Virus record (IMG/VR): IMGVR_UViG_3300022074_000306
Location: 1-27,235 of that record
Length of the DNA stretch: 27,235 bases
From: a virus
Strand: one strand, 5' to 3'
Shown: one piece after another, positions 1 through 14,839 of the stretch
How positions within the stretch are numbered: position 1 is the first letter of the stretch
Layout of the letters: each line of letters begins with the position of its first letter
Notes under the pieces: model-generated
What the model saw: the letters and a program-made list of their open reading frames with translations, nothing else
The model's database searches: none
Told to the model about the DNA's origin: nothing
Program-made: the position numbers and the translations under genes

Positions 1-148
1 CCGTAATAGGAAACCCAACTTCATCGGCATATAGCCGCAAAAGTTGACAACGACGCAAAGCATCTTCCTCATTAGAGAGGACGATGCTTGCGTGATGATC
101 GAGCCTGGTTAAAAGTTCCTTGTGATCTTTCAGGCTTTCGGGAATCAT
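1..148 (-). CDS. Unknown protein, N-terminal part (cut by window edge)
   Basis: This is an open frame on the minus strand from an ATG at 148 to the window edge, giving about 49 residues that begin MIPESLKDHKELL. It is rich in Leu, Asp, Glu and Arg and looks like a helical soluble protein, for example around LRRCQLLRLYADE. I recognise no domain. It overlaps the end of the upstream gene (72-443) by 77 bases in another frame. Within the overlap this frame looks more protein-like than the other, so the two may be one gene broken by an indel or joined by a frameshift. The ATG sits at the edge of a small hairpin (139-152). Confidence 0.5.
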   Translation of the reverse strand, partial: MIPESLKDHKELLTRLDHHASIVLSNEEDALRRCQLLRLYADEVGFPIT

Positions 149-443
149 CCCGGAGCTGCTTGATTCTGTTGGTGTAGTGTCCATCCTTGGCTTTGCTTGG
201 CGAATAAAAGTCGGCGTTTGTGTAGACACCAAGCCGTTCAAGTTCTTGAAAAGCAATTAGCTCATCGCTTGATTTGAAGGGGTGCTCTTTGTCCAAAGCA
301 TCCAGAGCGCGATTAGACCGCTCTGTTTGCGTTTTGCTGTAATAGCCGACCAACGCTAAATCGTCGTCATATTCAGCAGGAAGACAGTATGGAATCCACT
401 GCAGCAGATCAAATGATCGTTCCTGGCTGTCAGGGTTAGTCAC
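72..443 (-). CDS. Hypothetical protein, 123 aa
   Basis: I do not recognise this protein. The GTG at 443 is preferred over the TTG at 449 because it overlaps the stop of the upstream RHH gene (436) by 8 bases, which suggests coupled translation. The product is soluble and acidic in its first 90 residues, with no membrane segment. The last 23 residues turn strongly basic and low in hydrophobic residues (SRKPERSQ onward). In that stretch a different frame (1-148) looks more like real coding sequence, so the C-terminus may be an artefact of a frameshift. The context is a short leftward operon with an RHH regulator. Confidence 0.55.
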   Translation of the reverse strand: MTNPDSQERSFDLLQWIPYCLPAEYDDDLALVGYYSKTQTERSNRALDALDKEHPFKSSDELIAFQELERLGVYTNADFYSPSKAKDGHYTNRIKQLRDDSRKPERSQGTFNQARSSRKHRPL

Positions 444-705
444 GCGCAAGGGGCTCAGGCTCTGAGGCTATGGCCTTTTGCAGCAGCAGGTTGACCCAGC
501 CTGTGCGAGTCACACCTATGGGTTTCTTCCGATCAATTTCTTGTATCACTCTGGGGTCTATAAACACGCGAGTGTTCGTAATCTGTTCTAGTTCTGGCAC
601 GTTGTGGGCTTGCTTTGCCTGCAGATTGTGCCCATACTGTGCCGGAACCGCAACCCCCTCTTGCTCGAACCAATACCAGAACTGGATTTCTTTGAAGATC
701 AGCAC
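436..705 (-). CDS. Ribbon-helix-helix (RHH) type small protein, 89 aa
   Basis: This is a probable small DNA-binding protein. Residues of about 44-80 fit the RHH pattern: a short strand (TRVFIDP), a first helix (RVIQEIDRKK), a turn (PIGVTR) and a second helix (TGWVNLLLQKAIA). RHH proteins act as dimers and usually repress small operons; its target here is unknown. The GTG at 705 gives the longest form. A GTG at 600 would leave a 54-residue RHH core and would abut, without overlap, the divergent nuclease frame starting at 604. The 5' end therefore overlaps the nuclease on the other strand by an amount that depends on both true starts. It is followed by the 123-residue gene with overlapping stop and start. 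Confidence 0.6.
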   Translation of the reverse strand: MLIFKEIQFWYWFEQEGVAVPAQYGHNLQAKQAHNVPELEQITNTRVFIDPRVIQEIDRKKPIGVTRTGWVNLLLQKAIASEPEPLARD

Positions 706-1293
706 CGCTATCGGTGGCGTGGCAACTGGATTTTGGACAATGCGTCTGACGTTCTACAAGGCGAATTGAATGCGTTTGCTAAGAAAAAAATCGAAGAAAC
801 CAAGCATGGCGAAGACGGTTGGCTTGTAAGAGGCAGGACAATTCACCGCAGCTTGGATCGTTACCTCAGGGGTGAGGTTGATATGCACGACGACAAATGG
901 AGCCCTTGGATCGATGCTTTACTGGGTGATGAGCTTTTTCAGGGAATTGAAACCCTTGCTACTGAGTTTCGTGTGGTTGACCGATTTAACAGCGTTGCCG
1001 GAAGTTTTGATTTTTTAATCAAACAAAGAGATGGACTGACAATTTTGGGAGACCTCAAAACCGTAAGCAGTGCCAAGGCTGTTTCAGGTAGGAAGCCAGC
1101 GACAGGTCAACTTGGTGCATACACCAAAATGCTTGGCCAGCACTTTGGTCACATAACAGTGACTCAATGCGTCACAGTCGTTTCAGGCCCTGACAAAGTC
1201 AAAGTCATTAAGGAAGAGCCTGAAGACTGCATCAATGCATGGGAAGAGGCGTATGGACGCCACCAAGCGAGATATGCCGCTTTCGATTTTTAA
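604..1293 (+). CDS. PD-(D/E)XK nuclease, RecB/Cas4-like exonuclease family
   Basis: This is a probable phage exonuclease that would process DNA ends for the ERF annealing protein and SSB encoded downstream. Counting from the GTG at 604, the visible signatures are G77-x-x-x-H81 in an N-terminal helix, E121 before the core, D136 in a GSFDF strand, D150-L-K152 (the D-x-K of the PD-(D/E)XK site) and Q169-x-x-x-Y173, the QxxxY motif of RecB-type nucleases. The length (229 aa or less) suits single-domain phage members. The start is unresolved. The first 19 or so codons do not look like protein, and homology-like sequence begins near residue 24, so a TTG at 661 is a credible alternative. The 5' end overlaps the RHH gene on the other strand. 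Confidence 0.78.
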   Translation: MGLLCLQIVPILCRNRNPLLLEPIPELDFFEDQHRYRWRGNWILDNASDVLQGELNAFAKKKIEETKHGEDGWLVRGRTIHRSLDRYLRGEVDMHDDKWSPWIDALLGDELFQGIETLATEFRVVDRFNSVAGSFDFLIKQRDGLTILGDLKTVSSAKAVSGRKPATGQLGAYTKMLGQHFGHITVTQCVTVVSGPDKVKVIKEEPEDCINAWEEAYGRHQARYAAFDF

Positions 1294-1413
1294 TAAATGC
1301 GGACTAGAACCGGCTCACGCGCCTGACGCTCCTCACTCCTGATCCGCTGCAAGAGACCTGTGCAACCGTTGTAAAGGGTTACGAACCCACCATAACCACA
1401 TAGAAGCGAGTTG

Positions 1414-1542
1414 ATGGACTGGGCAAGAATCTTGAAACAAGGCGGCATCCCTGAGCCTCCTGGCTACTTGGAGACTGTTGCAAAAGTCAGCAGTAGACCC
1501 AAAAAACAAAAGAAAAAGCCCAAGAGCAAGAAAAAAGCTTGA
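1414..1542 (+). CDS. Small basic protein, 42 aa
   Basis: This short gene begins at ATG 1414 (a TTG lies just before it at 1411) and encodes 42 residues. The N-terminal half has a distinct motif (MDWARILKQGGIPEPPGY) and the last 15 residues are mostly Lys (KKQKKKPKSKKKA). The split between a structured front and a polylysine tail suggests nucleic-acid binding, but this is inference. It sits between the nuclease and P63C genes on the same strand. A TTGACA hexamer overlaps its stop codon and may be the -35 of the P63C gene. A hydrophobic frame on the opposite strand (1333-1545) is judged a shadow. Confidence 0.6.
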   Translation: MDWARILKQGGIPEPPGYLETVAKVSSRPKKQKKKPKSKKKA

Positions 1543-1566
1543 CAAGATCTAGCACTGCTGTAAACG
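1539..1566 (+). promoter_or_regulatory. Possible promoter of the P63C gene
   Basis: A perfect -35 hexamer TTGACA (1539-1544) is followed after 16 bases by TAAACG (1561-1566), a poor -10 with three of six matches. The next gene starts at 1592, a suitable distance. The -35 overlaps the stop codon of the 42-residue gene, the same arrangement as at the stronger promoter at 2666. The weak -10 keeps confidence low. Confidence 0.3.
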
Positions 1567-1591
1567 TTAAAGCGCTGTATGTCATCCACTG

Positions 1592-2527
1592 ATGAGAACA
1601 CTCAAAGATCTAGCTGGTGATCAAACGCCAGTCATCGCCTATCCGAAATCAATCCAGTTTGGACCAGTCACTCTTGACGGCTACATGCTTGAAAACGGCG
1701 AGTTTCGTCAGTCAATCAAATCAACAGGACGCGCTCTGGGAATGCGCTCAAATTCATTTATTCAAACCAAGACGGCGCAGCTTGCTGCACAGGCCGCCCA
1801 AAATGCTAGTGATAGCAACGGATTTGATCTAATAACCCCCGGAAAACAGGCCGACCAAATCATTGTGCCAGTGTGCTGCACAGGGGCAAACCATCACGCC
1901 AACACCGCGTACACCATCAATTTGCCGATGGTGGTTGAAGTTTGGAAGCAATTAGCGCTCAGCGACAGCAAATACGGCCACGCAGCGTTGGAGTTGCTCG
2001 GCCTATCTGCTGTTCATTCATTAGAAAGGGTCTATCAAGAAGCATTTGGCGTAGTTGACGCACGATCAACAGACGATCGATTGCTTGAATGGGCTATCAG
2101 ACTTGATGCAGGCAAGCATTTTCCGCTGTTTGGCGGTCAGTTTCATCAGCATTTTGCGCGTGTTACAGGGGTTGCACTTGGCCACCGATATGCCCAAGTC
2201 TGCTTGGCAGAATTGGTTTATCACCGATTGCCGGAAACAATTTATGAAACGCTAAAAGACATCAACCCTTTAGACGAACGAGGTTGGCGACAGTTCACCC
2301 ATAGCCAACTTATGTCAGACGATATGCGGCAACAAATGCGTGAAATCGTGTCTGCTGTTACCAGTCAACTCGCCAACACTCCAAGCAAGGCAGATGATTC
2401 CAAAGCATATAAGCGTTGCTTGCATCGCTTAGATAAAACCCTGCCACGTTACAAAAAACGTGGAGGAAACATCGATAATTTAAAAAAAGCGATTACTCTA
2501 AAGCCTGACGCCTCTGACCATGAATAA
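1592..2527 (+). CDS. P63C domain-containing phage protein
   Basis: This 311-residue protein has a C-terminal region (about 168-262) that fits the P63C domain: FP.F...F...F then a long helix, and the signature around LVYHRLPETIYETL with INPLDERGWRQFTH. P63C proteins occur in phages and plasmids. Their biochemical role is not established, and some have antirepressor-like N-termini. The N-terminal part (about 25-150) has the feel of such a domain, with GYMLENGE and an SAVHSLERVYQEA helix. The C-terminal 50 residues are Lys-rich. ATG 1592 is the first start in this frame; an ATG at 1579 is in a different frame that stops after 13 codons. Its stop overlaps the start of the RHH gene at 2520. Confidence 0.75.
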   Translation: MRTLKDLAGDQTPVIAYPKSIQFGPVTLDGYMLENGEFRQSIKSTGRALGMRSNSFIQTKTAQLAAQAAQNASDSNGFDLITPGKQADQIIVPVCCTGANHHANTAYTINLPMVVEVWKQLALSDSKYGHAALELLGLSAVHSLERVYQEAFGVVDARSTDDRLLEWAIRLDAGKHFPLFGGQFHQHFARVTGVALGHRYAQVCLAELVYHRLPETIYETLKDINPLDERGWRQFTHSQLMSDDMRQQMREIVSAVTSQLANTPSKADDSKAYKRCLHRLDKTLPRYKKRGGNIDNLKKAITLKPDASDHE

Positions 2528-2669
2528 ATTAAAACGGCGCCATCTTTTGTCAGTAACTTTAAAGAAAGAGTTATTCGAGCAAGTAAAAGCGCAAGCTCAA
2601 AAAGAAGACATTCCAGCCACGGCTTGGGCTAGGAAGGCAATTTTAGAAAAATTAGCCAAAGCACCTTGA
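2520..2669 (+). CDS. Small RHH-type DNA-binding protein, 49 aa
   Basis: The ATG at 2520 overlaps the last codons of the P63C gene by 8 bases, so the two are probably co-translated. The 49 residues are almost entirely an RHH fold: a strand (HLLSVTL), helix A (KKELFEQVKAQAQKED), a turn (IPAT) and helix B (AWARKAILEKLAK). The net charge is strongly positive. Its stop codon is embedded in the -35 hexamer of a promoter (2666) whose spacer carries a 10-base perfect palindrome. A natural inference is that this protein, or a sibling RHH protein, represses that promoter. Confidence 0.65.
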   Translation: MNKLKRRHLLSVTLKKELFEQVKAQAQKEDIPATAWARKAILEKLAKAP

Positions 2670-2694
2670 CATGGCATGCCACTCAGCCCATAAT
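2666..2694 (+). promoter_or_regulatory. Sigma-70-type promoter
   Basis: A consensus -35 TTGACA (2666-2671) and a near-consensus -10 CATAAT (2689-2694, five of six) are separated by exactly 17 bases. The -35 overlaps the TGA stop of the preceding RHH gene. The predicted transcription start near 2701 is almost on the ATG at 2702, so a transcript from it would be leaderless or would use the next ATG at 2726. It would drive the small-gene, RusA, ERF and SSB run that ends at the terminator at 4903. Confidence 0.6.
2672..2681. promoter_or_regulatory. Perfect palindrome TGGCATGCCA in promoter spacer (possible operator)
   Basis: This is a 10-base perfect palindrome lying wholly between the -35 and -10 hexamers of the 2666 promoter, starting one base after the -35. 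A protein bound here would block RNA polymerase. The same 10-mer occurs again at 3466-3475 inside the resolvase gene. The operator role is inferred from position and symmetry. Confidence 0.45.
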
Positions 2695-2701
2695 ACAGAG
2701 C

Positions 2702-2929
2702 ATGAGTCGCCTACCTCAACTTCTCATGATCAAACATGAATCCCACAAACTGCGTTCTGGCTTTTATGGCCCAGAACGCAGCAGCGCAAAAACCAACACA
2801 ATTGTTTCTGTTGTTGCCTGTGTTTTGTTCGGTGTAACTGCCTGGCATTCCTTGACTTCAACTTTGGATCAGCAGCAGGCTTATCACTGCGAACAGGGCT
2901 GGCAGCGTGCCTGTGAAAAACTTAAGTAA
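2702..2929 (+). CDS. Small single-pass membrane protein, 75 aa
   Basis: I know no specific family for this protein. ATG 2702 gives 75 residues; an ATG at 2726 would remove eight. A basic, polar N-terminus (about 1-35) is followed by one hydrophobic helix (about 36-53, IVSVVACVLFGVTAW) and a short tail with two cysteines (YHCEQGWQRACEKLK), which could face the periplasm. It is the first gene after the promoter at 2666, so it is probably expressed early. Its stop overlaps the next start (TAATG at 2927-2931). Phage proteins of this shape can act in superinfection exclusion or host take-over, but nothing in the sequence decides this. Confidence 0.55.
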   Translation: MSRLPQLLMIKHESHKLRSGFYGPERSSAKTNTIVSVVACVLFGVTAWHSLTSTLDQQQAYHCEQGWQRACEKLK

Positions 2930-3072
2930 TGGGTCTTCCGTCACGTTACATCAACACTGAAGAGTTTATTGCTGAAGCCAAAGCACGAGCCAAGGCTGCA
3001 CTCAAGCAAAAAAACATTAAACTTACAGCACTTGAAAAAGCCTTTCTTGAGGCTTTTAAAAGAGACCTGTAA
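2929..3072 (+). CDS. Small helical protein, 47 aa
   Basis: The ATG at 2929 overlaps the stop of the membrane-protein gene (TAATG). The 47 residues are rich in Ala, Lys and Glu and predict as two helices (EEFIAEAKARAKAALKQ and LTALEKAFLEAFKRDL) with no hydrophobic segment. I recognise no family. The tight overlaps on both sides make it a real member of the operon. A minus-strand frame across it (2946-3212) is considered a shadow. Confidence 0.5.
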   Translation: MGLPSRYINTEEFIAEAKARAKAALKQKNIKLTALEKAFLEAFKRDL

Positions 3073-3074
3073 TT

Positions 3075-3317
3075 GTGGGCAGCATTCGCGTAAGCCCCAT
3101 GCACATCAACTTCTTTCCTATGAAATCCGCTTCTATCAACCTCACCGAAGATCGCCAAGCAAAGCTGCAAGCATTGGTCGAAGCAGCCCCCTGCTACACC
3201 GCTGAAGTTCAAATTGCTGGCAAGACTATTCGCACCAGTGAGCGTAAGATCTCAGCATCCGCGCTAGCCCAGAGCTTGCTTGATGGTGCAATCGACGACC
3301 ACTACTCCCGCTTGTAA
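3075..3317 (+). CDS. RHH-like protein with an enlarged middle loop, up to 80 aa
   Basis: The GTG at 3075 lies two bases after the previous stop. ATGs at 3099 and 3120 are in frame and 3120 may be the true start, because the recognisable part begins there. After it come a strand and helix (SINLTEDRQAKLQALVEA) and, near the end, a second helix (SASALAQSLLDGAIDDHY). This resembles an RHH unit with about 22 residues (including TAEVQIAGKTIRT) inserted between the helices. The insert could be a beta hairpin. It overlaps the start of the RusA gene by 35 bases. DNA-binding function is inferred and weaker than for the 2520 gene. Confidence 0.5.
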   Translation: MGSIRVSPMHINFFPMKSASINLTEDRQAKLQALVEAAPCYTAEVQIAGKTIRTSERKISASALAQSLLDGAIDDHYSRL

Positions 3318-3750
3318 TTCATTCACTTTTACTGTTTTAGGTAAACCCGCCCCACAAGGCAGTAAAAGACACGTAGGCAAAGGCGTCATGGTTGAATCCT
3401 CTAACAGGGTCAAACCATGGCGTTTAGACGTAAAGCACACTGCACTGGGCTTGCTTCCTAGTCACTGGCATGCCATACTAGACAAGCCAATGGCAGTTAC
3501 AGCGACGTTTATTTTTGCTCGTCCAAAAAATCATTTTCGCGCCAACGGTCAATTAAAACCTGCAGCACCGAAACACTGCACTTCCCGTGTGGGCGATGTT
3601 GACAAGTTAAGCCGCAGCATTCTTGACGCCCTTTCTGAAGGTGTGATTTTCAACGACGACGCTCAAGTCGTCAGCCTTATTGCCTCCCGCCGCTACGCCA
3701 ATGACTCAGAACAACCCTCCGCAATCATCACCGTCACAGCAATCACCTGA
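3283..3750 (+). CDS. rusA: RusA-like Holliday junction resolvase
   Basis: RusA proteins are small dimeric endonucleases that cut four-way DNA junctions made during phage recombination. From ATG 3283 (a TTG lies one codon upstream) the protein is 155 residues. Residues 14-29 hold the usual opening strand and glycine turn (FTFTVLGKPAPQGSKR). The catalytic region is 105-126: D105-V-D107-K-L-S-R-S-I-L-D115-A-L, then N124-D125-D126. This aligns without gaps to the acidic DxDN...DAL...DD region of E. coli RusA, with R111 where RusA has its conserved Lys. It overlaps the ERF gene by 50 bases, which supports functional pairing in recombination. Confidence 0.8.
   Translation: MVQSTTTTPACNSFTFTVLGKPAPQGSKRHVGKGVMVESSNRVKPWRLDVKHTALGLLPSHWHAILDKPMAVTATFIFARPKNHFRANGQLKPAAPKHCTSRVGDVDKLSRSILDALSEGVIFNDDAQVVSLIASRRYANDSEQPSAIITVTAIT
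3466..3475. repeat. Second copy of palindrome TGGCATGCCA
   Basis: This is identical to the 10-base palindrome in the spacer of the promoter at 2666 but lies within the RusA coding sequence. It might be a secondary binding site for the same regulator, or chance. On random sequence a given 10-mer is expected about 0.03 times in a window of this size. Confidence 0.3.
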
Positions 3751-4396
3751 CCTTGCATTAGCTTTGATTGCTTTTCAAGCATCAGTCCCAACCATTCACG
3801 ACAACGACAAAAGTTTTCACGGTAGTTTTGCCAATTTGCCTGGCATTCTTTCAACGATTGGACCCAAGCTGCGCGAGCATGGTTTAACTGTTTCTCAGTT
3901 ACCTGAAGGCATTGACGGAAAGCCTGGCTTAAGAACAACACTGATGCACGTCAGCGGGCAATCTGTTTCTGCGGTGACTCCTGTTGAGATTCAGCAAGGC
4001 GTTGACCGCAAAGGTAAGCCCCTAAACGCAACCCAGGAGTGGGGGAAGGCAATTACTTACTCCCGGCGCTATGCCCTTCAAGCAGTGCTTGGTCTGTGCG
4101 TAGGCATTGAAGATAACGATGCAGACATGGAACTATCAGCTCCGCCAGTCAGAGCAGAAACCTCTGAGCCTGCAGCTAAAATTGAGGGAGTATCAGACGG
4201 AGACCAACCACTCAGCAAAAACGATCGAGAGCTTTGCTTGGGCTTGATCAAAGAACTAGAGGCAGACAAACTTGCTTTGTTTCTTGCAGACTTTCGACGG
4301 GATTTTGGTTTAAGCAAAGAAGCCAAAGTCGCTCCATCCTTGACTAGCAAAAAGCATCAGGATTTCATGAATAAAAACATGCACAAGTATGTCTGA
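3701..4396 (+). CDS. erf: ERF-family single-strand annealing protein
   Basis: ERF proteins anneal complementary single strands and support genome circularisation and recombination. ATG 3701 is preferred over the TTG at 3680 because the first 16 residues are already a disordered Gln/Pro/Ser leader. The core spans about 20-145. The family signature is at 115-127 (GKAITYSRRYAL), followed by an acidic DNDAD stretch (138-142). The rest is a variable linker and a helical C-terminus. Length (231 aa) is normal. Neighbours RusA (upstream, overlapping), an RHH-like protein and SSB make a recombination module, with the PD-(D/E)XK nuclease as the likely partner exonuclease. Confidence 0.85.
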   Translation: MTQNNPPQSSPSQQSPDLALALIAFQASVPTIHDNDKSFHGSFANLPGILSTIGPKLREHGLTVSQLPEGIDGKPGLRTTLMHVSGQSVSAVTPVEIQQGVDRKGKPLNATQEWGKAITYSRRYALQAVLGLCVGIEDNDADMELSAPPVRAETSEPAAKIEGVSDGDQPLSKNDRELCLGLIKELEADKLALFLADFRRDFGLSKEAKVAPSLTSKKHQDFMNKNMHKYV

Positions 4397-4568
4397 CGAC
4401 AAAACGCCTCAAGCGTTGCGTGATGATGATCGACGCAATCGCCATTTTCAAGTCAGGCTAGATCTTCAGCTAGCCAATCAACTTCGGCACTATGCTGATC
4501 AACGCCATAACGGTGTTGTCAACATGGCGCTAACAACCATCGTTTCTAAATTTTTCAACGGTAAGTAA
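4389..4568 (+). CDS. RHH-like small protein, 59 aa
   Basis: The ATG at 4389 overlaps the ERF stop by 8 bases, and the stop abuts the SSB start (TAAATG). The first 16 residues are polar and charged. Residues of about 17-57 fit an RHH: a strand (RHFQVRLD), a helix (LQLANQLRHYADQRH), a turn and a second helix (VVNMALTTIVSKFF). It may be a DNA-binding accessory of the recombination module or a regulator. It is the fourth RHH-type frame in the first 4.6 kb. Confidence 0.55.
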   Translation: MSDDKTPQALRDDDRRNRHFQVRLDLQLANQLRHYADQRHNGVVNMALTTIVSKFFNGK

Positions 4569-4886
4569 ATGCTCAACATCACAGCTCACGGCAATCTCGG
4601 CAAAGACCCTGAAATCAAAGATGTCAAAGACACTCAGGTTGCTGAGTTCAGCTTGGCAGCAAGAACCGGCAAAGATGAGACCACCTGGATCAACTGTGCT
4701 GTTTGGGGGAAACGCGCAGATGTCGTTAAGCAGTATCTGCACAAAGGCGACAAGGTCACTGTTGCAGGCTCTGGCAAGATAACGACTTACGAGAAAAAGG
4801 ACGGCACAGAGGGGTTTTCGCTGAATCTGAATGTCTCTGATTTCACCTTGCCACCTAAGAAAGAAACAGAAGATGCCCCTTTCTAA
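4569..4886 (+). CDS. ssb: Single-stranded DNA-binding protein (SSB)
   Basis: This is an OB-fold protein that coats single-stranded DNA during phage replication and recombination. The 105 residues cover a short SSB: an opening strand (MLNITAHGNLGKDPE), then WINCAVWGKRADVVKQYL with the typical WxxCxxWGK pattern, KGDKVTVAGSG, and a C-terminal strand followed by an acidic tip ending EDAPF. That tip resembles the partner-binding end (DDxPF) of bacterial SSBs and suggests it recruits host or phage partners. It is shorter than the roughly 170-residue host type because the disordered linker is nearly absent. It is the last gene before a strong terminator. Confidence 0.92.
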   Translation: MLNITAHGNLGKDPEIKDVKDTQVAEFSLAARTGKDETTWINCAVWGKRADVVKQYLHKGDKVTVAGSGKITTYEKKDGTEGFSLNLNVSDFTLPPKKETEDAPF

Positions 4887-4902
4887 AATGCGAGCGCAGG
4901 GC

Positions 4903-4926
4903 AGGGAGCTTCGGCTCCCTTTTTTT
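4903..4926 (+). terminator. Intrinsic terminator after SSB
   Basis: A perfect 7-base-pair stem (AGGGAGC at 4903-4909 with GCTCCCT at 4914-4920) closes a TTCG tetraloop in the very stable C(UUCG)G context. It is followed by six more T (4921-4926) directly after the T that ends the stem. This is a textbook rho-independent terminator closing the early plus-strand operon. Confidence 0.92.
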
Positions 4927-5091
4927 ATGGCTAAACCAGTAATCCAGCAGGTAAACCATAAAGGCGTTTTGCTGTGGGAAGTCAGTTATGCAGGCATGAC
5001 ACGCTATTTCCGGCGCGATTGGCAAGCCAGATGGCATTTTGAATCGTGCATCAGGCTGCACCGATCAAAGACTGGAGGCAATAACGGCTAA
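4927..5091 (+). CDS. Small hypothetical protein, 54 aa
   Basis: The ATG at 4927 follows the T-tract of the terminator with no gap, so translation needs read-through or an unseen promoter upstream. The 54 residues are rich in aromatic and basic residues (KGVLLWEVSYAGMTRYF, then RRDWQARWHFES). They suggest a small beta-then-alpha fold that may bind nucleic acid. I recognise no family. The stop (TAA) overlaps the stop of the convergent gene at 5088 by four bases. The same frame is open upstream of the terminator, but those codons overlap SSB and are not convincing. Confidence 0.5.
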   Translation: MAKPVIQQVNHKGVLLWEVSYAGMTRYFRRDWQARWHFESCIRLHRSKTGGNNG

Positions 5092-5291
5092 CTAGGAGCG
5101 ATTGCCTTGTCAAGCGAAGCAATCCGTTCCACCGCTTGCTTTAGCAGTATTCCCTGATGCCAGTTTTGCTTGATTAACGCTACGCAAAGTGATTGCAGGT
5201 GGTCAACGTCTTTTTCTTCGTGAACACGACGACAAGTGCATTCAAGGTTGAGCTTTTGTTCCAGGCTTGGGTCAATGATCATCCATTCCAT
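5088..5291 (-). CDS. Small helical protein, NblA-like pattern, 67 aa
   Basis: ATG 5291 gives a 67-residue protein predicted as two helices. Residues of about 8-55 loosely follow the NblA (Ycf18) pattern: SLEQ plus a hydrophobic-polar helix, a turn rich in acidic residues, then L..LCVALIKQ. NblA tags phycobilisomes for degradation and is carried by some freshwater cyanophages. The match is by eye and weak at the C-terminal helix, which continues further than in NblA (ILLKQAVERIASLD). It may instead be an unrelated small picocyanophage family. The start lies inside the end of the upstream gene (20-base overlap). Confidence 0.5.
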   Translation of the reverse strand: MEWMIIDPSLEQKLNLECTCRRVHEEKDVDHLQSLCVALIKQNWHQGILLKQAVERIASLDKAIAPS

Positions 5292-5484
5292 TAGAACGCT
5301 CCAGTGACTTTAGGTAAAGGCGCTCAGAAGCGTATGGCTCCCTTGCACGCATGATGTCACCGGCAACAGGTGCTAGCCACTGATCAACCCGTACACAGTA
5401 TTTAAAGTTGTACGGGTCCATGCAGCCAATAACGACTGTTGTCCAGAACGCGGTCAGATAGCTCCAGACGACGTACCAGCTCAC
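5272..5484 (-). CDS. Small protein with N-terminal hydrophobic helix, 70 aa
   Basis: The GTG at 5484 overlaps the stop of the peptidase gene (GTGA), so it is probably translated with it. The first 22 residues (WYVVWSYLTAFWTTVVIGC) form a likely membrane or signal-anchor helix rich in Trp. The remainder is soluble, with two more Cys/Tyr-rich positions and a charged end. No family is recognised. Being downstream of a cell-wall-type peptidase, it could be a lysis accessory, but there is no direct evidence. Confidence 0.5.
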   Translation of the reverse strand: MSWYVVWSYLTAFWTTVVIGCMDPYNFKYCVRVDQWLAPVAGDIMRAREPYASERLYLKSLERSNGMDDH

Positions 5485-6212
5485 AAATCATCAACCAAAA
5501 TCGCCCAACCAGTGTTGCTACCTTCTGGTTGCCATCTAGCGTCAAACTCAGACTGACGAACCTGTACGTTGTGACCTAAATGCGGATTGGAATGACCACC
5601 GTTTTGCATGTCAGGTAGACCACGCGGATCTTGCATGATCCACTCAGGGTCTGAACTATTCTTTCCCCTGTAACCAGAAATTACGCTGTAATGACCACAA
5701 CTTATTGAATTACATGTTGGCGATTGAATCGGGCCTTTGTCTAGCCAGCCAACTATGACAGGCCTTCCCATCTCAATTTCTATTTCAATAATATCGCGGT
5801 CTGCATTTTTGATAAATCTTGCATTTAGACCAAGACTTTCTAGCGCTTGTATCTGCGCTTCAACAGAAGTCGTGTCGCCATATTGAGCACGTATTTTATT
5901 ATATTCGTCGTCTGATTTAACTTTGCCCCAAAAATTCGCCACCATCGCAGACGCTGAACTGAAGCACTCGCGGTAACCAGTTCCTGACTCATTGTCGAGT
6001 TGAGTGAAATAGCGCATGTAGACCTCTTGGTCAATGCCGCTTGCTTTCCACGCATCAAACCATGCGTTGTCTTCTTCCGCCAAAAGGTCTTGAGGCATTC
6101 GCTCCTCAAGTTCTTTGATTGCAGCCAACTGGTGGGGCGTACCACGAAACCAATGAAAGAATGGAAGCAAACTAAGACCCATCGCTGCTCCAAACAACTT
6201 TCGTGTGCTCAC
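5481..6212 (-). CDS. C39-like cysteine peptidase, candidate endolysin
   Basis: From GTG 6212, four bases after the upstream stop, the protein has 243 residues. An upstream TTG at 6281 would add 23 residues overlapping the previous gene. Residues 5-22 are hydrophobic (LFGAAMGLSLLPFFHW), a likely signal anchor. The papain-like domain spans about 66-240: Q71 (FTQLDN, oxyanion position), C83 in ECFSSASAMVANFWG (nucleophile), H174 in GHYSVISGYRG and D195 in MQDPRG, in the order of the peptidase C39 fold. Phages of cyanobacteria often carry such a protein where an endolysin is expected. Wall hydrolysis is inferred from the fold plus the neighbouring membrane proteins. Confidence 0.72.
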   Translation of the reverse strand: MSTRKLFGAAMGLSLLPFFHWFRGTPHQLAAIKELEERMPQDLLAEEDNAWFDAWKASGIDQEVYMRYFTQLDNESGTGYRECFSSASAMVANFWGKVKSDDEYNKIRAQYGDTTSVEAQIQALESLGLNARFIKNADRDIIEIEIEMGRPVIVGWLDKGPIQSPTCNSISCGHYSVISGYRGKNSSDPEWIMQDPRGLPDMQNGGHSNPHLGHNVQVRQSEFDARWQPEGSNTGWAILVDDL

Positions 6213-6216
6213 AACG

Positions 6217-6471
6217 TTAGTTGCGATTGCTATGGCCTTCAAGCCGAGCGACTGATTGTTCCAACATTGAAAGACGAGCAAAAATCTCTTGGTCTCTTGT
6301 CCTGATGTCTGCGTGAAGGATGTCCATCCTGCCCGCTAAATTATCGACAGCAGTCGTTAAACGCACCAAGGAATCCCTCCCTTGCTGGCTTTGACGGTTG
6401 ATACCCGTTAGACCAGCAGAAGCAACACCAACGCTTGCTCCAGCTACAGCTGCCCAAATTTCAACCACCAT
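6217..6471 (-). CDS. Membrane-anchored coiled-coil protein (lysis-associated type)
   Basis: ATG 6471 is preceded by AGAGGT about four bases upstream, a fair ribosome-binding site. The 84-residue product has an N-terminal Ala/Gly/Val helix (about 4-24), then a long amphipathic stretch with leucine-type heptads (RLTTAVDNLAGRMDILH, then ARLSMLEQSVARLEG). The shape resembles phage XhlA-like or spanin-like accessory proteins, in which a coiled coil helps a peptidase or holin work at the membrane. It sits directly upstream of the C39-like peptidase on the same strand and is divergent from the holin-like gene at 6495. Confidence 0.6.
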   Translation of the reverse strand: MVVEIWAAVAGASVGVASAGLTGINRQSQQGRDSLVRLTTAVDNLAGRMDILHADIRTRDQEIFARLSMLEQSVARLEGHSNRN

Positions 6472-6494
6472 TCGACCTCTAGCGCTATCCCATC

Positions 6495-6758
6495 ATGGCA
6501 GATTCACAAGAAAAGCCAGAACAGGAAGAATCCAACTCCCGTTTAGGCGACGTTATCAAGGTTGTATTGCTTGGCTGGGCAATGGCAATCTTGACTGCCA
6601 ACTACCTTGGCGTTTTCAAGCAATCCTTAGATCCAACTTATCCAGCCAGTATTTTGAGTGGCACGGCTGCTTCCTTTGGTTTGGCGGTTGGCAACAACAG
6701 GAAGAAAAAAGAGGAGCCTACAATCAAAGAACAAACCACTACGGCAAAGCCAAAATGA
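6495..6758 (+). CDS. Holin-like small membrane protein, 87 aa
   Basis: ATG 6495 gives 87 residues: an acidic, soluble N-terminus (1-17), a hydrophobic helix (about 19-40, VVLLGWAMAILTANYLGVF), a short loop, a second Gly/Ala-rich helix (about 52-67) and a basic tail from NNRKKK. Two membrane helices with a charged tail fit small holins, which pierce the inner membrane at lysis. Holins have little sequence conservation, so the call rests on topology and position beside the peptidase and coiled-coil genes. Only 23 bases separate its start from the divergent ATG at 6471. Its stop overlaps the next start (ATGA). Confidence 0.55.
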   Translation: MADSQEKPEQEESNSRLGDVIKVVLLGWAMAILTANYLGVFKQSLDPTYPASILSGTAASFGLAVGNNRKKKEEPTIKEQTTTAKPK

Positions 6759-7249
6759 AACGCTTAGCTCTGGTATTAGGCATCACACTGTTTGCCGCTC
6801 CAGTGCAGGCAGACATTACTCATCGCATTCAGTCATCAGTTTCATTGTCAGTTGATGGAGCGGGATCTGTCGCCACGAGAATACCGTCTTCATTTGCGGT
6901 ATCTGGCTCTAACGTCACTCTTAGTACTGAGCCAGTGCTCGGCACTCTTACTTCAGGGACTGCTCTTGGTTATACTCCAGGTGAGTACAGCATTACCACT
7001 GCTGGTGATGCTTTTAGTTACAGCGAAAGCTATACAGAAGGAGACGATGTACCGACAGTCCTCTCAACAACAGTCACGTCAGGAGTAGTTCCGGCACTGC
7101 CTATTTTTGGCAGTACAACTACAACTTCAGGCGGTGTTGCTGGCACTCTGGCTGGAACAATCGCAACTGATGGTGCTTTAACGATTACGGCTGGAAATTC
7201 TGGTACAACTGCAATCGGTCAAGTCATTCAAGAACTTACGATCAAGTGA
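6755..7249 (+). CDS. Exported protein 1, 164 aa
   Basis: ATG 6755 overlaps the previous stop (ATGA). Residues 1-20 are a clear signal peptide (MKRLALVLGITLFAAPVQA, cleavage before DITH). The mature part is rich in Ser, Thr, Gly and Val and has few charges, as in beta-rich secreted or virion-surface proteins (for example SGSNVTLSTEPVLG). There is no membrane segment after the signal. I have an impression of similar genes in cyanophages, without a known function. It is the first of three overlapping genes for exported proteins. Confidence 0.6.
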   Translation: MKRLALVLGITLFAAPVQADITHRIQSSVSLSVDGAGSVATRIPSSFAVSGSNVTLSTEPVLGTLTSGTALGYTPGEYSITTAGDAFSYSESYTEGDDVPTVLSTTVTSGVVPALPIFGSTTTTSGGVAGTLAGTIATDGALTITAGNSGTTAIGQVIQELTIK

Positions 7250-7680
7250 TGCTTTGGTATTGGCTTGTCTTCTCGCTGATTCTTATTGCCGTTCCAACAA
7301 AGGCAGTACCTGTTGTTCCAAACTTTCAGCAAGGTGTCTTGTCTTCTACCACCACAACTAAAACTAAAGTTACTGAAGTCATAAACTCATACGAATATCG
7401 CACTGGCTATGAGTTAAGCGTTAGCGGCACAAACATTAAGCCTGACGCCTCGATTGCTCCAATGAATATCAGTACAACAACCAACGTCGTAAATGGCATT
7501 TCTAGTGTTTGGCGCGGACTAGATCCAGCATCAAAACCAGAATGGCGCATCGTAAATCAAGGTGCATCTTTTCAGTTTGTTGAAACGCTTCAAGGGCCAG
7601 GGCTTGTAAATCATACGTTGATTAACCGTGAAACAGACATTGAATCTCTCACGGAAACAACAAGTACGTTTACGCAATGA
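7249..7680 (+). CDS. Exported protein 2, 143 aa
   Basis: ATG 7249 overlaps the stop of the previous gene (GTGATG; a GTG at 7246 is the alternative). A hydrophobic N-terminus (LWYWLVFSLILIAVPTKA) is a likely signal peptide cut after residue 19. The mature protein is Thr/Ser-rich and beta-like, with repeated TTTT and TET-type stretches and an EWRIVNQGASFQFVET segment. No family is recognised. The stop overlaps the next start (ATGA). The tight overlaps with both neighbours suggest the three exported proteins are made together and may act together. Confidence 0.58.
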   Translation: MLWYWLVFSLILIAVPTKAVPVVPNFQQGVLSSTTTTKTKVTEVINSYEYRTGYELSVSGTNIKPDASIAPMNISTTTNVVNGISSVWRGLDPASKPEWRIVNQGASFQFVETLQGPGLVNHTLINRETDIESLTETTSTFTQ

Positions 7681-8381
7681 AACGAGTCATAGCAACGCTT
7701 TTGCTGCTTTCCGCTCCAGTCCAAGCGCAGGTAAGTAGTACAGCAGCACCAGTCGCGAACAGTAGCGGTTCGGTAACTAATCAAGCCGTGATGGTCACTC
7801 CTAGTAAAAATTTTAGTTCTGTGATTAACGGCGTTAGTTGTCAAGGTGCAACCCTAACAATTAACCCTTTCCTTAGTTCAACTACTGGCTGGGCTGATCC
7901 TTACGAAGGTCATTATGCAGATCCGGTTTATGACACTCTCGATATCACTGGCGCGTTTGATTCGGAAGGCAATGCCATCCCAGATGGCAGGCCCGATAAT
8001 CCGGGCTCTATCCTTTTCTATAAACAAATCAGGACAGCTCAAAAGACAAACTTTTCAGTAAATGGCGGCATCACTGCACAGATCTCAATTCCGTTAGATC
8101 GCAGTCATATCCGTACTTGTCGTAAAGCAGCAACAAAGCAAGTCGAGTTGATGGAAGCAGCCTTGGCCGATAAACGCTTGAACTACGAAATCGCAAGACT
8201 CAAGAACTGCGCCAACCTTATGAAAGAAGGCATTATGTTTCATCCTGACTCGCCTTACGCTTCAATCTGCGCTGATGTAGTCCTAGTTAATCCACCTGGA
8301 GTCTTGCCGCCCCACACACACTCAATACCTACTTCCGCAAAGCGCGTTGCTCCTTCCGACGGTCAAAAGCAGACTCAATAA
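7677..8381 (+). CDS. Exported protein 3, 234 aa
   Basis: The signal peptide (MKRVIATLLLLSAPVQA) closely resembles that of exported protein 1. The mature protein starts Ser/Thr/Val-rich. It has a central Asp/Gly/Pro region (FDSEGNAIPDGRPDNPG), a beta segment (NFSVNGGITAQISIPLDR) and a helical part with four cysteines in the mature chain (one before and three after the beta segment), which could form disulphides in the periplasm or outside the cell. It ends in a polar tail after PPGVLPPHTHS. I recall similar proteins in cyanophages but cannot name a function. Its last 53 bases overlap the convergent gene at 8329. Confidence 0.58.
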   Translation: MKRVIATLLLLSAPVQAQVSSTAAPVANSSGSVTNQAVMVTPSKNFSSVINGVSCQGATLTINPFLSSTTGWADPYEGHYADPVYDTLDITGAFDSEGNAIPDGRPDNPGSILFYKQIRTAQKTNFSVNGGITAQISIPLDRSHIRTCRKAATKQVELMEAALADKRLNYEIARLKNCANLMKEGIMFHPDSPYASICADVVLVNPPGVLPPHTHSIPTSAKRVAPSDGQKQTQ

Positions 8382-9087
8382 CCACTTTTTTGCCTAGCTT
8401 CTCATTGATCTTTTTGATTGTCTTTTTTACGATTGGTTTGACTGCCTTGAGCAAAAAGTCTCCTAAAGGTTTTGCAGCGATGGCACTGGTGGTTGCTACT
8501 GCAGCGATTGCAGCCGTGCTCATTACGACAGGTGCACCAGGTAAATAGTTGCCGACAATCTTTGCCACAGGCAATAGCTCTAGCTGTGGCTCACACTTGC
8601 CGTCAACCATCTCATAGCCAGTTATTACAGCGGTTTGTAGTTTATTTTTTGCTCCTATAGGTATTGCATCTGGTGGTGGACAAGGCAGATTTTCCGGTAA
8701 TATAGGAATGCCAGATTCAGCAGCTGGCAGGGGGTTCATGGCCGATTGAGTCTTGGCTGTCTCTTTCGGCTTATCCTCTCCAGGGTCTAACCTTGGCGGT
8801 TTTACACCTTCAGGCGGTTGCAACGCTGGTGAAAAATCTAATGGTCGATACGATGGCATCGTTCCATCGCAAACTACAAAATTTCCCTTAGGGTCATTTG
8901 TATAAGCCTTTTGGTTGCCTGGCTGTGTATTTCTAGATTCAACGCAACCAGGCACTTGGATAACTGGAAAGCCAAGCTGCAAAGTGACTGGTGGTTCAGT
9001 TGGAATACTCTGAGGCGGCATACTCCGCCAAGCCGGAATAACTGGCACGTTTACCGCTCCAATACCAATCTCAGGAATTTCCGGCAT
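8329..9087 (-). CDS. Proline-rich protein with C-terminal membrane segment, 252 aa
   Basis: ATG 9087 gives a protein whose first 140 residues are very rich in Pro, with Ile and Val (MPEIPEIGIGAVNVPVIPAW) and three cysteines. A hydrophobic Ala/Ile helix lies at about 187-207 (MSTAAIAAVATTSAIAA), and the last 45 residues are strongly basic (KPIVKKTIKKINEKLGKK). This layout, an extended Pro-rich arm, one membrane helix and a basic tail, suggests a membrane-spanning or virion-associated protein. I associate similar openings with cyanophages but know no function. It is convergent with exported protein 3, and its start codon overlaps the divergent start at 9086. Confidence 0.55.
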   Translation of the reverse strand: MPEIPEIGIGAVNVPVIPAWRSMPPQSIPTEPPVTLQLGFPVIQVPGCVESRNTQPGNQKAYTNDPKGNFVVCDGTMPSYRPLDFSPALQPPEGVKPPRLDPGEDKPKETAKTQSAMNPLPAAESGIPILPENLPCPPPDAIPIGAKNKLQTAVITGYEMVDGKCEPQLELLPVAKIVGNYLPGAPVVMSTAAIAAVATTSAIAAKPLGDFLLKAVKPIVKKTIKKINEKLGKKVVIESAFDRRKEQRALRK

Positions 9088-9355
9088 GAAATCAGAACGC
9101 TTTACAGCTGGTCAGCTTTGGATTGACCGTGTCAAGCAACACGAGGGGCCGCCTTACGTTTACACATGCTGGTCAGGCAAGACCTCAAGACTATTCACTG
9201 ATCGCAAAGCACTGCTGAAATTTGTCAAATGGCCGCCAAAAACACCAACAGGAGATGCGTTACGCGAATGGCTTTTATCATTTGAGCCAAAACCAGAAGC
9301 TATCGCTCCAGAGACTGATAACGACCCAACTGCCAATACAAAAATGGTGACTTGA
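9086..9355 (+). CDS. Hypothetical protein, 89 aa
   Basis: ATG 9086 shares two bases with the divergent ATG at 9087 (CATG). The N-terminal 60 residues look like a compact alpha-beta domain (RFTAGQLWIDRVKQHEG, then a VYTCWSGKTSRLF strand pair and a DRKALLKFVKWP helix). The C-terminus is acidic and probably disordered. No family is recognised. Its stop is two bases from the stop of the convergent gene at 9358. Confidence 0.5.
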   Translation: MKSERFTAGQLWIDRVKQHEGPPYVYTCWSGKTSRLFTDRKALLKFVKWPPKTPTGDALREWLLSFEPKPEAIAPETDNDPTANTKMVT

Positions 9356-9357
9356 CT

Positions 9358-9585
9358 TTAAGGAAACTTAATTGGCAAGCCAGTTTCAGTCGGAAGTTCT
9401 GGCATTGCGCTTTCAATCTCATCAGGGATCATCTCAGTAACCTTTCCAGCAACATCACCAGTAATGCTGTCCGCATAACGAGTGATCATGCCCGGAAGGC
9501 GTGAGTACAGCATCACAGAGCTGCCAAGCATTCCTGCTGACATGACAAATGCTGCAACTGATAGAACGTTGAAAACTTTTTGCAT
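9358..9585 (-). CDS. Small single-pass membrane protein, 75 aa
   Basis: ATG 9585 starts a protein with one N-terminal membrane helix (about 5-27, FNVLSVAAFVMSAGMLGSSV) and a soluble tail of about 45 residues with an acidic, Pro-rich end (EIESAMPELPTETGLPIKFP). The hydrophobic part could be an uncleaved signal anchor with the tail in the periplasm. I recall look-alikes near structural genes of cyanophages, function unknown. It lies downstream of a hairpin that may limit read-through from the outer-membrane protein gene. Confidence 0.55.
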   Translation of the reverse strand: MQKVFNVLSVAAFVMSAGMLGSSVMLYSRLPGMITRYADSITGDVAGKVTEMIPDEIESAMPELPTETGLPIKFP

Positions 9586-9604
9586 AGCAAAGGCAGATAC
9601 GCAA

Positions 9605-9626
9605 AAGGCCCCTTTTCAGGAGCCTT
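9605..9626 (-). terminator. Terminator-like hairpin after the barrel gene
   Basis: On the minus strand AAGGCTCC (9626-9619) pairs with GGGGCCTT (9612-9605), eight pairs including one G-T, around a six-base loop. Only two more T follow before GC, so the T-tract is short. It lies 34 bases past the stop of the outer-membrane barrel gene and just before the 9585 start, so partial termination is plausible. Confidence 0.45.
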
Positions 9627-9659
9627 CTACTATCCGTGTGAGGATGCTTTAGTTATAGC

Positions 9660-10016
9660 TCAAAAAGCGTATTTGCCACCAAGCTTCAGGCCATAAGAAG
9701 CATCAACGTCTTCAAACTTTGCGTAACCAACCTCGGTGTAGAGATTCAAGCTGTCGCTTACAGCAGCAGAAACGCCAGTTTTGCCGGAGAAACCCCATTC
9801 AGAATCCGATCCATCATTAGAAAGAGCGGGTCCAGCTTGGATGTAGAAGGGGCCTTCTTGGAATCCAGCGTGCAGCTCTAGTGAGCTACCAACAAACTCA
9901 GCGCCTGAAAAACCTGCGTTGTACTCAGGATTTACATACACTTCGCCTGCGACAACAGGAGATGCCAGCGCAGCTGCCGTAACGACGGCACCACTCACAA
10001 TCAAAGATTTGATCAT
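9660..10016 (-). CDS. Small outer-membrane beta-barrel protein, 118 aa
   Basis: ATG 10016 is chosen because a signal peptide begins right there (MIKSLIVSGAVVTAAALA, cleavage after PVVA). A longer frame to 10064 adds an unlikely leader. The mature part, about 95 residues, alternates hydrophobic and polar residues in strand-like runs separated by short turns (SSLELHAGFQEG, FYIQAGPAL, NLYTEVGYAKF, YGLKLGGKYAF). It ends in Phe, as outer-membrane barrels do for insertion. The size suits a barrel of about eight strands. Phages use such proteins to change the host surface or block superinfection, but the role here is inferred. It is preceded by a short inverted repeat (10042). Confidence 0.65.
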   Translation of the reverse strand: MIKSLIVSGAVVTAAALASPVVAGEVYVNPEYNAGFSGAEFVGSSLELHAGFQEGPFYIQAGPALSNDGSDSEWGFSGKTGVSAAVSDSLNLYTEVGYAKFEDVDASYGLKLGGKYAF

Positions 10017-10041
10017 TAGAAAGGGGTTTAACGTTTTCCGT

Positions 10042-10063
10042 TGACAGGTTACTTGAACTGTCA
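10042..10063. promoter_or_regulatory. Inverted repeat upstream of the barrel gene
   Basis: TGACAG (10042-10047) and CTGTCA (10058-10063) are perfect six-base arms with ten bases between, 26 bases upstream of the barrel start on the minus strand. It could be an operator or a weak hairpin in the leader. No convincing promoter hexamers were found around it on that strand. Confidence 0.25.
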
Positions 10064-10104
10064 CTGTGCCAGTTGTGAGAGTGTGTCACTACGTTGGCAG
10101 ACCA

Positions 10105-10299
10105 TCAATAACCGTCAGTTGAAGACAGGCTCTGATATTTCTCAGACAAACCGGTAAACAGACCACGTTGTGGGTGATCTGCTTGGTCACGGCCATCCAA
10201 GAAATACAACTCCTCTAGCCATAGCGTGCGGTTAGACATGCTTTGCACATCTTCTGCACCAGGCTTGCAAGGAATCATTGGATCAGGTCGTTGCATCAT
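10105..10299 (-). CDS. Hypothetical protein, 64 aa
   Basis: ATG 10299 overlaps the stop of the upstream gene (ATGA) and is preferred over a TTG at 10308. The product is soluble and charged, with a helical middle (NRTLWLEELYFLDGRD) and an HPQRGLFTGLSEKYQ end. I have seen similar small genes paired with the DUF7936-like gene in cyanophages, but no function is known. The pair lies just beyond the tail fibre, behind a hairpin, so it is probably a separate small unit that may be expressed at a lower level. Confidence 0.58.
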   Translation of the reverse strand: MMQRPDPMIPCKPGAEDVQSMSNRTLWLEELYFLDGRDQADHPQRGLFTGLSEKYQSLSSTDGY

Positions 10300-10619
10300 G
10301 CGCTCCAAGGCGTACCTGCACCTGTAGTTGGCGTTTTCTTTTCGGCAAGCTGTGCATCTAATGCTGCATGAATTTCAGCAACCTTGTCCGCTCCACCAAT
10401 AGCGGATTGCGCCCATGAAACAGCTTGCGCTTCTGTCACGTCGTCATAAGCAATAAATTTGTCAGCCTCTCCGGCTTCAAGACCAACAGAGCCATAGGCG
10501 CCAACGCTATACGTTCCATCTTCATCAGTGGCATTCACTGTGTAGTGGAGCGTGTTAATCATTCCGGTTTCAAGGAGTCTGTCACATTGACCGACTTTCC
10601 AAACGTAGGTGTTTGCCAT
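10296..10619 (-). CDS. DUF7936-like cyanophage protein, 107 aa
   Basis: ATG 10619. The sequence opens MANTYVWKV and has a beta-rich first half (NTLHYTVNATDEDGTYSVG, then a Gly-rich turn), then an acidic linker (FIAYDDVTEAQAVSWAQ) and a helix, ending KKTPTTGAGTPW. This pattern matches small proteins I associate with DUF7936 in cyanomyoviruses and related phages. Those are of unknown function, probably structural or tail-associated. It follows the tail fibre gene on the same strand after a strong hairpin. Confidence 0.6.
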   Translation of the reverse strand: MANTYVWKVGQCDRLLETGMINTLHYTVNATDEDGTYSVGAYGSVGLEAGEADKFIAYDDVTEAQAVSWAQSAIGGADKVAEIHAALDAQLAEKKTPTTGAGTPWSA

Positions 10620-10653
10620 AGTTAAACGAATGCAGAATCAGTGTAAATGGAAA

Positions 10654-10673
10654 GCCCCGCGTTGCCACGGGGC
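10654..10673 (-). terminator. Hairpin after the tail-fibre gene (probable terminator)
   Basis: On the minus strand GCCCCGTG pairs with CGCGGGGC around a GCAA tetraloop: eight pairs, one of them G-T, very GC-rich, with a stable GNRA loop. It starts 10 bases past the fibre stop. Only three T follow, so it may terminate partially or stabilise the 3' end of the long tail transcript rather than stop it fully. Confidence 0.6.
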
Positions 10674-10682
10674 GGTTTACTG

Positions 10683-14819: not shown

Positions 14820-14839
14820 TGTTGACTAGCCTCCAAGGC

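Follow-up and report, generated by a model that had tools for sequence, protein, structure and literature searches.

The promoter P1 and the palindrome in its spacer

The window analysed here, an IMG/VR virus record of 27,235 bp, contains a promoter-like element (P1) that overlaps the end of a gene for a 49-residue ribbon-helix-helix (RHH) protein, RHH49, and carries a palindrome (O1) in its spacer, which raises the question of which genes the element controls and which protein reads it. A sequence-only reading had taken the small gene, the palindrome and the promoter of the following operon for one compact autoregulated unit, with an early-gene or lysogeny-type control suggested. Computation shows a conserved element with a fixed placement in promoters, a synonymous constraint on its second copy inside rusA and a regulon of several promoters, and the element appears to be one of the switches in a control circuit that spans the phage genome, not a private switch of RHH49. 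The features of the region are listed in Table 1.

Table 1. Promoters, operators and genes in the part of the window around P1.
Feature	Position	Strand	Remarks
MDW protein	1414..1542	+	lysine-rich tail; TGA also within a TTGACA (1539-1544)
Putative separate promoter of the P63C-RHH49 cassette	1539..1567	+	TTGACA-17-AAACGT; palindrome AGCACTGCT 1551-1559
P63C-domain protein	1592..2527	+	opens the inserted P63C-RHH49 cassette; Pfam P63C 4.5e-5, slightly short of the cut-off
RHH49	2520..2669	+	cargo gene; stop within P1 -35
Promoter P1	2666..2694	+	-35 TTGACA 2666-2671, spacer 17 bp, -10 CATAAT 2689-2694
Operator O1 TGGCATGCCA	2672..2681	no strand	core GGCATGCC 2673-2680, class GGYATRCC, spacer offset 7
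Small membrane protein	2726..2929	+	first gene of the P1 operon; alignment A1, 136 related contigs; start from homologues
P47	2929..3072	+	small basic protein of the operon; position in gene order
RHH80	3120..3317	+	RHH-like, 65 aa; considered as regulator, disfavoured
rusA	3280..3750	+	Holliday junction resolvase, contains O2; Pfam RusA 2.6e-12
Putative internal promoter P2 inside rusA	3451..3479	+	TTGCTT 3451-3456, CATACT 3474-3479, spacer 17; fits promoter rule
Operator O2 TGGCATGCCA	3466..3475	no strand	core 3467-3474, offset 16, abuts -10; codes Trp-His-Ala
ERF single-strand annealing protein	3680..4396	+	Pfam ERF 5e-15; ORF bounds, start uncertain
RHH59	4389..4568	+	Arc-like, 59 aa, between ERF and SSB; one copy in 13/13 genomes
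SSB	4569..4886	+	Pfam SSB 1.8e-20

The earlier description of the element itself was exact, both in the TTGACA-17-CATAAT promoter with the TGA of RHH49 (2667–2669) inside its −35 hexamer and in the perfect ten-base palindrome of the spacer. With these hexamers and a spacing within 16–18 bp, P1 has the form of a sigma-70-type promoter and is the top match of this type within positions 1–14000 of the window, scoring 11/12, while the remaining 12 sites score 9/12. The number of such sites in this region is the same as in shuffled sequences, so the promoter call for P1 rests on conservation. The same applies to the palindrome, because a perfect 10-bp palindrome anywhere in a 17-bp spacer is expected by chance in about 1% of cases (8 positions × 4^-5), which makes a lone instance weak and leaves conservation across loci to settle its reality. 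The exact 10-mer TGGCATGCCA occurs twice in the window (2672 and 3466), and four matches with at most one mismatch compare with 1.21 expected.

The operon downstream of P1 and its relatives

A search of viral contigs with the motif TTGACATGGYATRCCAC returned 32 stretches, most of which present the same element ahead of a homologue of the small membrane protein encoded downstream of P1. To avoid choosing loci by the motif, a second search was made with the membrane protein itself (alignment A1), which gave 136 contigs, of which 80 were kept. Pooling both searches and requiring that a TTGAC(A/G) promoter precede the membrane-protein gene gave 68 distinct loci; 17 further loci are without such a promoter and belong mostly to one divergent clade or to truncated contigs. 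The conserved core of the palindrome is the 8-bp GGYATRCC, which is kept in the P1-equivalent spacer of 66 of the 68 loci, and a CATnnT stands at an unchanged distance in all 25 loci of the first alignment. The gene order is stable and runs from EXO and MDW through variable cargo to the promoter, the membrane protein, P47, RHH80, RusA, ERF, RHH59 and SSB. P1/O1 is thus, as judged from this comparison, the predicted promoter–operator of the downstream small-membrane-protein operon, in an architecture common to the 68 distinct related loci, which supports the earlier assignment of the promoter to the following operon and of a regulatory role to the operator in its spacer.

The alignment of homologues places the start of the membrane protein at ATG 2726, so that transcription starting near 2701–2702 would give a leader of about 24 nt. 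Two other starts, a leaderless one at ATG 2702 and one at TTG 2666, were rejected, as the homologues align from ATG 2726 and the TTG frame of locus L004 is interrupted by a stop. The protein family (67 aa) has an FYDPERS motif, one hydrophobic segment and two conserved cysteines near the C-terminus; it occurs in the 136 viral contigs and was not found in GTDB genomes or in cultured phages. No family match was obtained for P47 in profile searches.

One palindrome at many promoters

The search for the palindrome in related phages, which the sequence-only reading had proposed, revealed that it recurs inside many promoters of a group of uncultured marine phages. In 13 related phage genomes (342 kb), GGYATRCC occurs 45 times, and 40 of these copies are found within the 17-bp spacer of promoters of the form TTGnnn-17-nAnnnT, at a spacer offset of 6–16, compared with 136 of 3480 copies (3.9%) for 191 control palindrome classes. 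A similar excess was detected in new contexts taken from loci fetched by RHH59 and not by the motif, where 26 of 37 copies are in promoter spacers versus 2.1% for controls. The gene map locates promoter copies ahead of the membrane-protein operon, inside rusA and after SSB, with one to four more between the early-type genes of the opposite arm and the terminase. The same site is thus found at several promoters per genome and is enriched over controls, as in a multi-site phage repressor regulon.

The placement of the palindrome is restricted as well. Among 172 distinct promoter instances, for which the promoter rule was required and the rusA promoters were counted in, the offsets are 16 (90 instances), 7 (48), 8 (11), 6 (8), 9 (8) and 5 (7), and none falls at 10–15. 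The palindrome either adjoins the −35 or abuts the −10, and some promoters have both, the double sites being 10–11 bp apart in L059, L060, L125 and L200. Some loci (L148, L157 and L164) have an additional GGYATRCC, placed about 25 bp downstream of the first and close to where transcription would start.

A putative promoter and operator within rusA

The second exact copy of the 10-mer lies within the coding sequence of rusA, in the spacer of the putative promoter P2. In 39 distinct rusA genes of the window type, the His/Tyr residue of O2 is encoded by CAT or TAT in all 39, each of the 38 alanines by GCC and the leucine at the −35 of P2 by TTG without exception (39 of 39), while the mean synonymous identity over the whole gene is 0.57. 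Coding pressure alone is therefore disfavoured as the origin of this palindrome, the wobble positions being frozen at O2 against the gene average; the contrast is strong but not unique, as a few other codons are equally frozen. In a second type of rusA, the site is absent altogether. The frozen codons and the exact promoter geometry support a putative internal promoter with its operator upstream of ERF, RHH59 and SSB, and the frozen codons look like a promoter and operator concealed in coding sequence.

Leaders downstream of the promoters

A short GC hairpin with a GNRA loop was observed about 8–11 nt past the −10 of non-coding promoters, as in L121 (12609, minus strand), L044, L077, L102 and others. 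In examples such as GGGA-GAGA-TCCC, GCGG-GAGA-CCGC and GGCG-GAGA-CGCC, the stem sequences differ and the pairing is kept, and the hairpin is followed by an A/C-rich stretch up to the ATG with no evident Shine-Dalgarno sequence. The text pattern that separates the rusA copies from the non-coding ones over-counts rusA, so the leader statistics apply to a smaller non-coding set, in which the hairpin is present in 36 of 57 leaders versus 6.5 in shuffles and the GNRA loop in 32 versus 0.3. Membrane-protein promoters are mostly without it (present in 4 of 49).

RHH59 as the candidate regulator

The best candidate for the operator-binding protein is most likely RHH59, an assignment to which the evidence points indirectly. 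RHH59 is the sole DNA-binding-type family present in all 13 site-bearing genomes. Its HFQVRL strand is near-invariant across 48 variants of the protein, in which most other positions vary. Profile comparisons gave weak matches to the PHROG Arc-like repressor (25 of 27 members, best 2.7e-4) and to Pfam Arc (9 of 27 members, best 9e-4), and only 3.5% probability in an hhalign comparison with Arc. In a gapless alignment, the RHH59 strand is collinear with Q9-F10-N11-L12-R13 of Arc, placing H19, Q21 and R23 on Gln9, Asn11 and Arg13, the residues that make base contacts in Arc (PMC12645479). The AlphaFold monomer of RHH59 is of low confidence (pLDDT 65), with helices at 26–37 and 46–56 after HFQVRL and the strand not formed; a Foldseek search, of little weight with such a model as query, gave no significant fold match, and a profile search of the PDB nothing but spurious matches.

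The strand of RHH59 covaries with the site variant. In variants with an FFQVR strand, 17 of 17 sites are GGCATGCC, compared with 10 of 133 for HFQVR variants (Fisher 8e-16, uncorrected for kinship). On the ERF tree, this covariation reduces to two independent changes, both in the expected direction, a number from which no significance can be derived. The window itself runs counter to the trend, with HFQVR together with GGCATGCC, and variants with a KFNVR strand are mixed, since L100 (2844 onwards) has GGCCGGCC and its close relative L095 keeps the usual GGCATACC at the same promoter. The covariation is thus suggestive. If RHH59 is the reader, specific binding to TGGCATGCCA or TGGTATGCCA DNA is expected, and if the strand sets the specificity, the FFQVR form should favour GGCATGCC over GGTATGCC. 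The HFQVR and FFQVR forms, with their different site preferences, would offer a natural test of ribbon-helix-helix recognition.

In the cultured relatives KBS-S-2A, S-H1, MED4-184 and MED4-117, the slot of RHH59 is occupied by an HTH protein instead. GGYATRCC is absent from KBS-S-2A and S-H1 and present in one copy each in MED4-184 and MED4-117, inside annotated coding genes, and a tblastn search with RHH59 detected no homologue of the regulon in cultured phages. The different DNA-binding protein in the same slot suggests that regulators may have been swapped together with their sites.

Another repressor could also read the site, be it RHH80, the RHH-like protein RHHm (436–603, minus strand), a small protein that escaped recognition, a host regulator or an AAA-HTH protein whose gene lies beyond the window; we regard this as unlikely. 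RHH80 is encoded in the same operon, and each phage has several RHH-like proteins, so the indirect assignment to RHH59 leaves them some room. However, of the 13 site-bearing genomes, 3 have no RHH80, 6 no RHHm and 7 no AAA-HTH protein, although some of these genomes are fragments. The strand residues of RHH80 vary between loci where the site is constant, and together with its absence from three genomes this makes RHH80 disfavoured as the reader. Against a general host regulator stand the lack of the membrane-protein family in GTDB genomes and the two cultured relatives without the site. The earlier idea of a reader among the RHH proteins of the window is thus supported in its general form, with RHH59 as the probable reader, while its specific assignment to the 49-residue protein is contradicted by the distribution of that gene.

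Proposed control circuit

In the reading that we consider somewhat better than an even bet, P1/O1 is the promoter–operator of the operon that begins at 2726, and GGYATRCC is bound at several promoters by a dimeric phage repressor, most likely RHH59. The operon from the membrane protein through P47, RHH80, RusA, ERF and RHH59 to SSB would be under the control of P1/O1. A phage-encoded dimeric repressor occupying GGYATRCC in the spacer would block RNA polymerase at P1, and the same repressor would block the second promoter inside rusA and the other early-type promoters of the genome, a label given by gene content only. As the product of its own operon, RHH59 would accumulate and shut this operon and the other promoters together, in an Arc/Cro-like early turn-off. 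We infer that the site serves to repress and not to activate, that RHH59 reads it, and when the turn-off would take place. Offsets of 5–9 or 16 and never 10–15, tandem copies and a normal 17-bp spacer point to tolerance of positions on about one helix face, as expected for a blocker.

The palindrome may alternatively be an activator site or a part of a specialised promoter served by an alternative sigma factor or co-activator, with the TGC of GGTATGC ahead of CATAMT acting as an extended −10 (TGn), but this appears improbable. The offset-16 site nearly always puts TGC directly ahead of the −10, imperfect hexamers are seen at the −10 (CATACT) and at some of the −35 elements (TTGCGC), and the cultured relative KBS-S-2A encodes a sigma factor. 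Yet at offsets 5–9 the palindrome is far from the −10 and equally conserved, its dyad symmetry is kept and it occurs in tandem copies. Moreover, MerR-type promoters have longer spacers (19–20 bp) with a centred operator, unlike the 17-bp spacer of P1 with its palindrome at one end.

In its fullest form, for which we see about an even chance, this reading would mean that in a large, uncultured group of marine siphophages a single Arc-like RHH regulator reads one 8-bp palindrome at either of two spacer positions in several or most early-type promoters, one of them lying inside rusA and most of the non-coding ones having a conserved leader with a GNRA hairpin. For these uncultured relatives of marine cyanobacterial siphophages, no publication on the control of their genes was found; the analysis offers a set of promoters, an operator that can be read and a small candidate regulator of 59 aa, all testable with short DNA.

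RHH49, its cassette and the insertion site

In favour of RHH49 as a specific repressor that acts on O1 stand the position of the gene, which ends in the −35 in the window and in seven other loci, and its Arc-like and CopG-antitoxin profile matches, but its distribution makes this very improbable. The gene is found in 3 of the 13 site-bearing genomes and upstream of 8 of the 68 P1 copies, many loci and genomes keep the site where RHH49 is absent, and RHH49 occurs without a downstream site in L003, L005 and L007. On these distributions across loci and genomes, RHH49 was rejected as the reader of O1, and the claim of one autoregulated unit of gene, operator and promoter falls with it. P1 lies downstream of RHH49 and therefore cannot autoregulate it. 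Most carriers of the P63C-RHH49 cassette have their own TTGAC(A/G)-17-nAnnnT promoter with a palindrome around AGCANTGCT (1551–1559 in the window) that is unlike GGYATRCC, so any autoregulation by RHH49 is more likely to take place at the putative cassette promoter than at O1. The cassette-promoter palindrome takes the forms CAGCATTGCTG and GCAGCACTGCTGC in other carriers.

It is equally hard to credit that the TTGACA block is mainly a recombination joint for cargo exchange upstream of the operon, with the palindrome secondary: six unrelated upstream families end at one P1-type TGA (MDW in 35 loci, winged-HTH-like proteins in 8, RHH49 in 8 and three singletons) and, next to the P63C insert, MDW has kept TTGAC at its end, but the palindrome-in-spacer architecture is found at many promoters without a cassette boundary.

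The region between the MDW gene and the membrane-protein promoter (1540–2669 in the window) is an insertion hot spot that holds P63C-RHH49, winged-HTH genes and others; ahead of the insert MDW retains its terminal TTGAC, and the last gene of the insert ends in TTGACA. The RHH-like proteins of these phages are different from one another and numerous for genomes of <40 kb, being encoded in the window at 436–603 (minus strand), 2520–2669, 3120–3317 and 4389–4568 and in G002 at 13853–14119 and 14636–15370.

Phage group and lifestyle

The terminase of a relative shares 57–60% identity with those of KBS-S-2A, S-H1 and the Prochlorococcus siphophages MED4-184 and MED4-117. The group is therefore most likely an uncultured branch of the siphophages of marine picocyanobacteria, which on this kinship would be the host. 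No tyrosine integrase (Pfam Phage_integrase) was detected in any of the 13 records, which are fragments, with positive controls working, and KBS2A was reported to be without integration genes (PMC3751600). The lysogeny-type control suggested earlier thus found no support in these fragmentary records, which make an early turn-off in a virulent phage more likely than immunity.

Comparison with known systems

The cultured siphophages KBS-S-2A, S-H1, MED4-184 and MED4-117 resemble the present group in the terminase lineage and in a DNA-binding gene downstream of an ERF-like gene, and differ in that they have no GGYATRCC in promoters and carry an HTH protein of the 'excisionase/regulator' type in place of RHH59. 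The Arc operator of phage P22 sits between the −35 and −10 of Pant, as GGYATRCC does in its promoters, and the likeness extends to a small RHH protein whose β-strand residues would read the major groove. Arc binds a 21-bp operator with TAGA boxes as a dimer of dimers (PMC12645479). The phage sites described here, in contrast, usually consist of one 8-bp palindrome, with occasional tandems 10–11 bp apart, and are present at several promoters per genome. Palindromes of 8 bp are also the units of the met box, each bound by one RHH dimer of MetJ. Unlike the phage copies, which are single or spaced by 10–11 bp in promoter spacers, met boxes are immediately tandem, and MetJ is a metabolic regulator.

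Among phage systems with many sites, the stoperators of the cluster A mycobacteriophages are numerous genome-wide sites for one phage repressor (PMC9283540). Stoperators are asymmetric, lie also outside promoters and stop elongation across the genome, whereas GGYATRCC is a palindrome that hardly occurs outside promoter spacers. In phage SPbeta, the regulator MrpR is a recombinase-fold protein that maintains lysogeny, unlike the candidate RHH protein of the present group, in whose records no tyrosine integrase was found. The two systems are alike in having one repeated phage element across many promoter regions: the SPbeta element, SPBRE, is repeated in the promoter regions of about ten genes and had been put forward as a repressor site on sequence grounds well ahead of the recognition of MrpR as its reader (PMC10516654).
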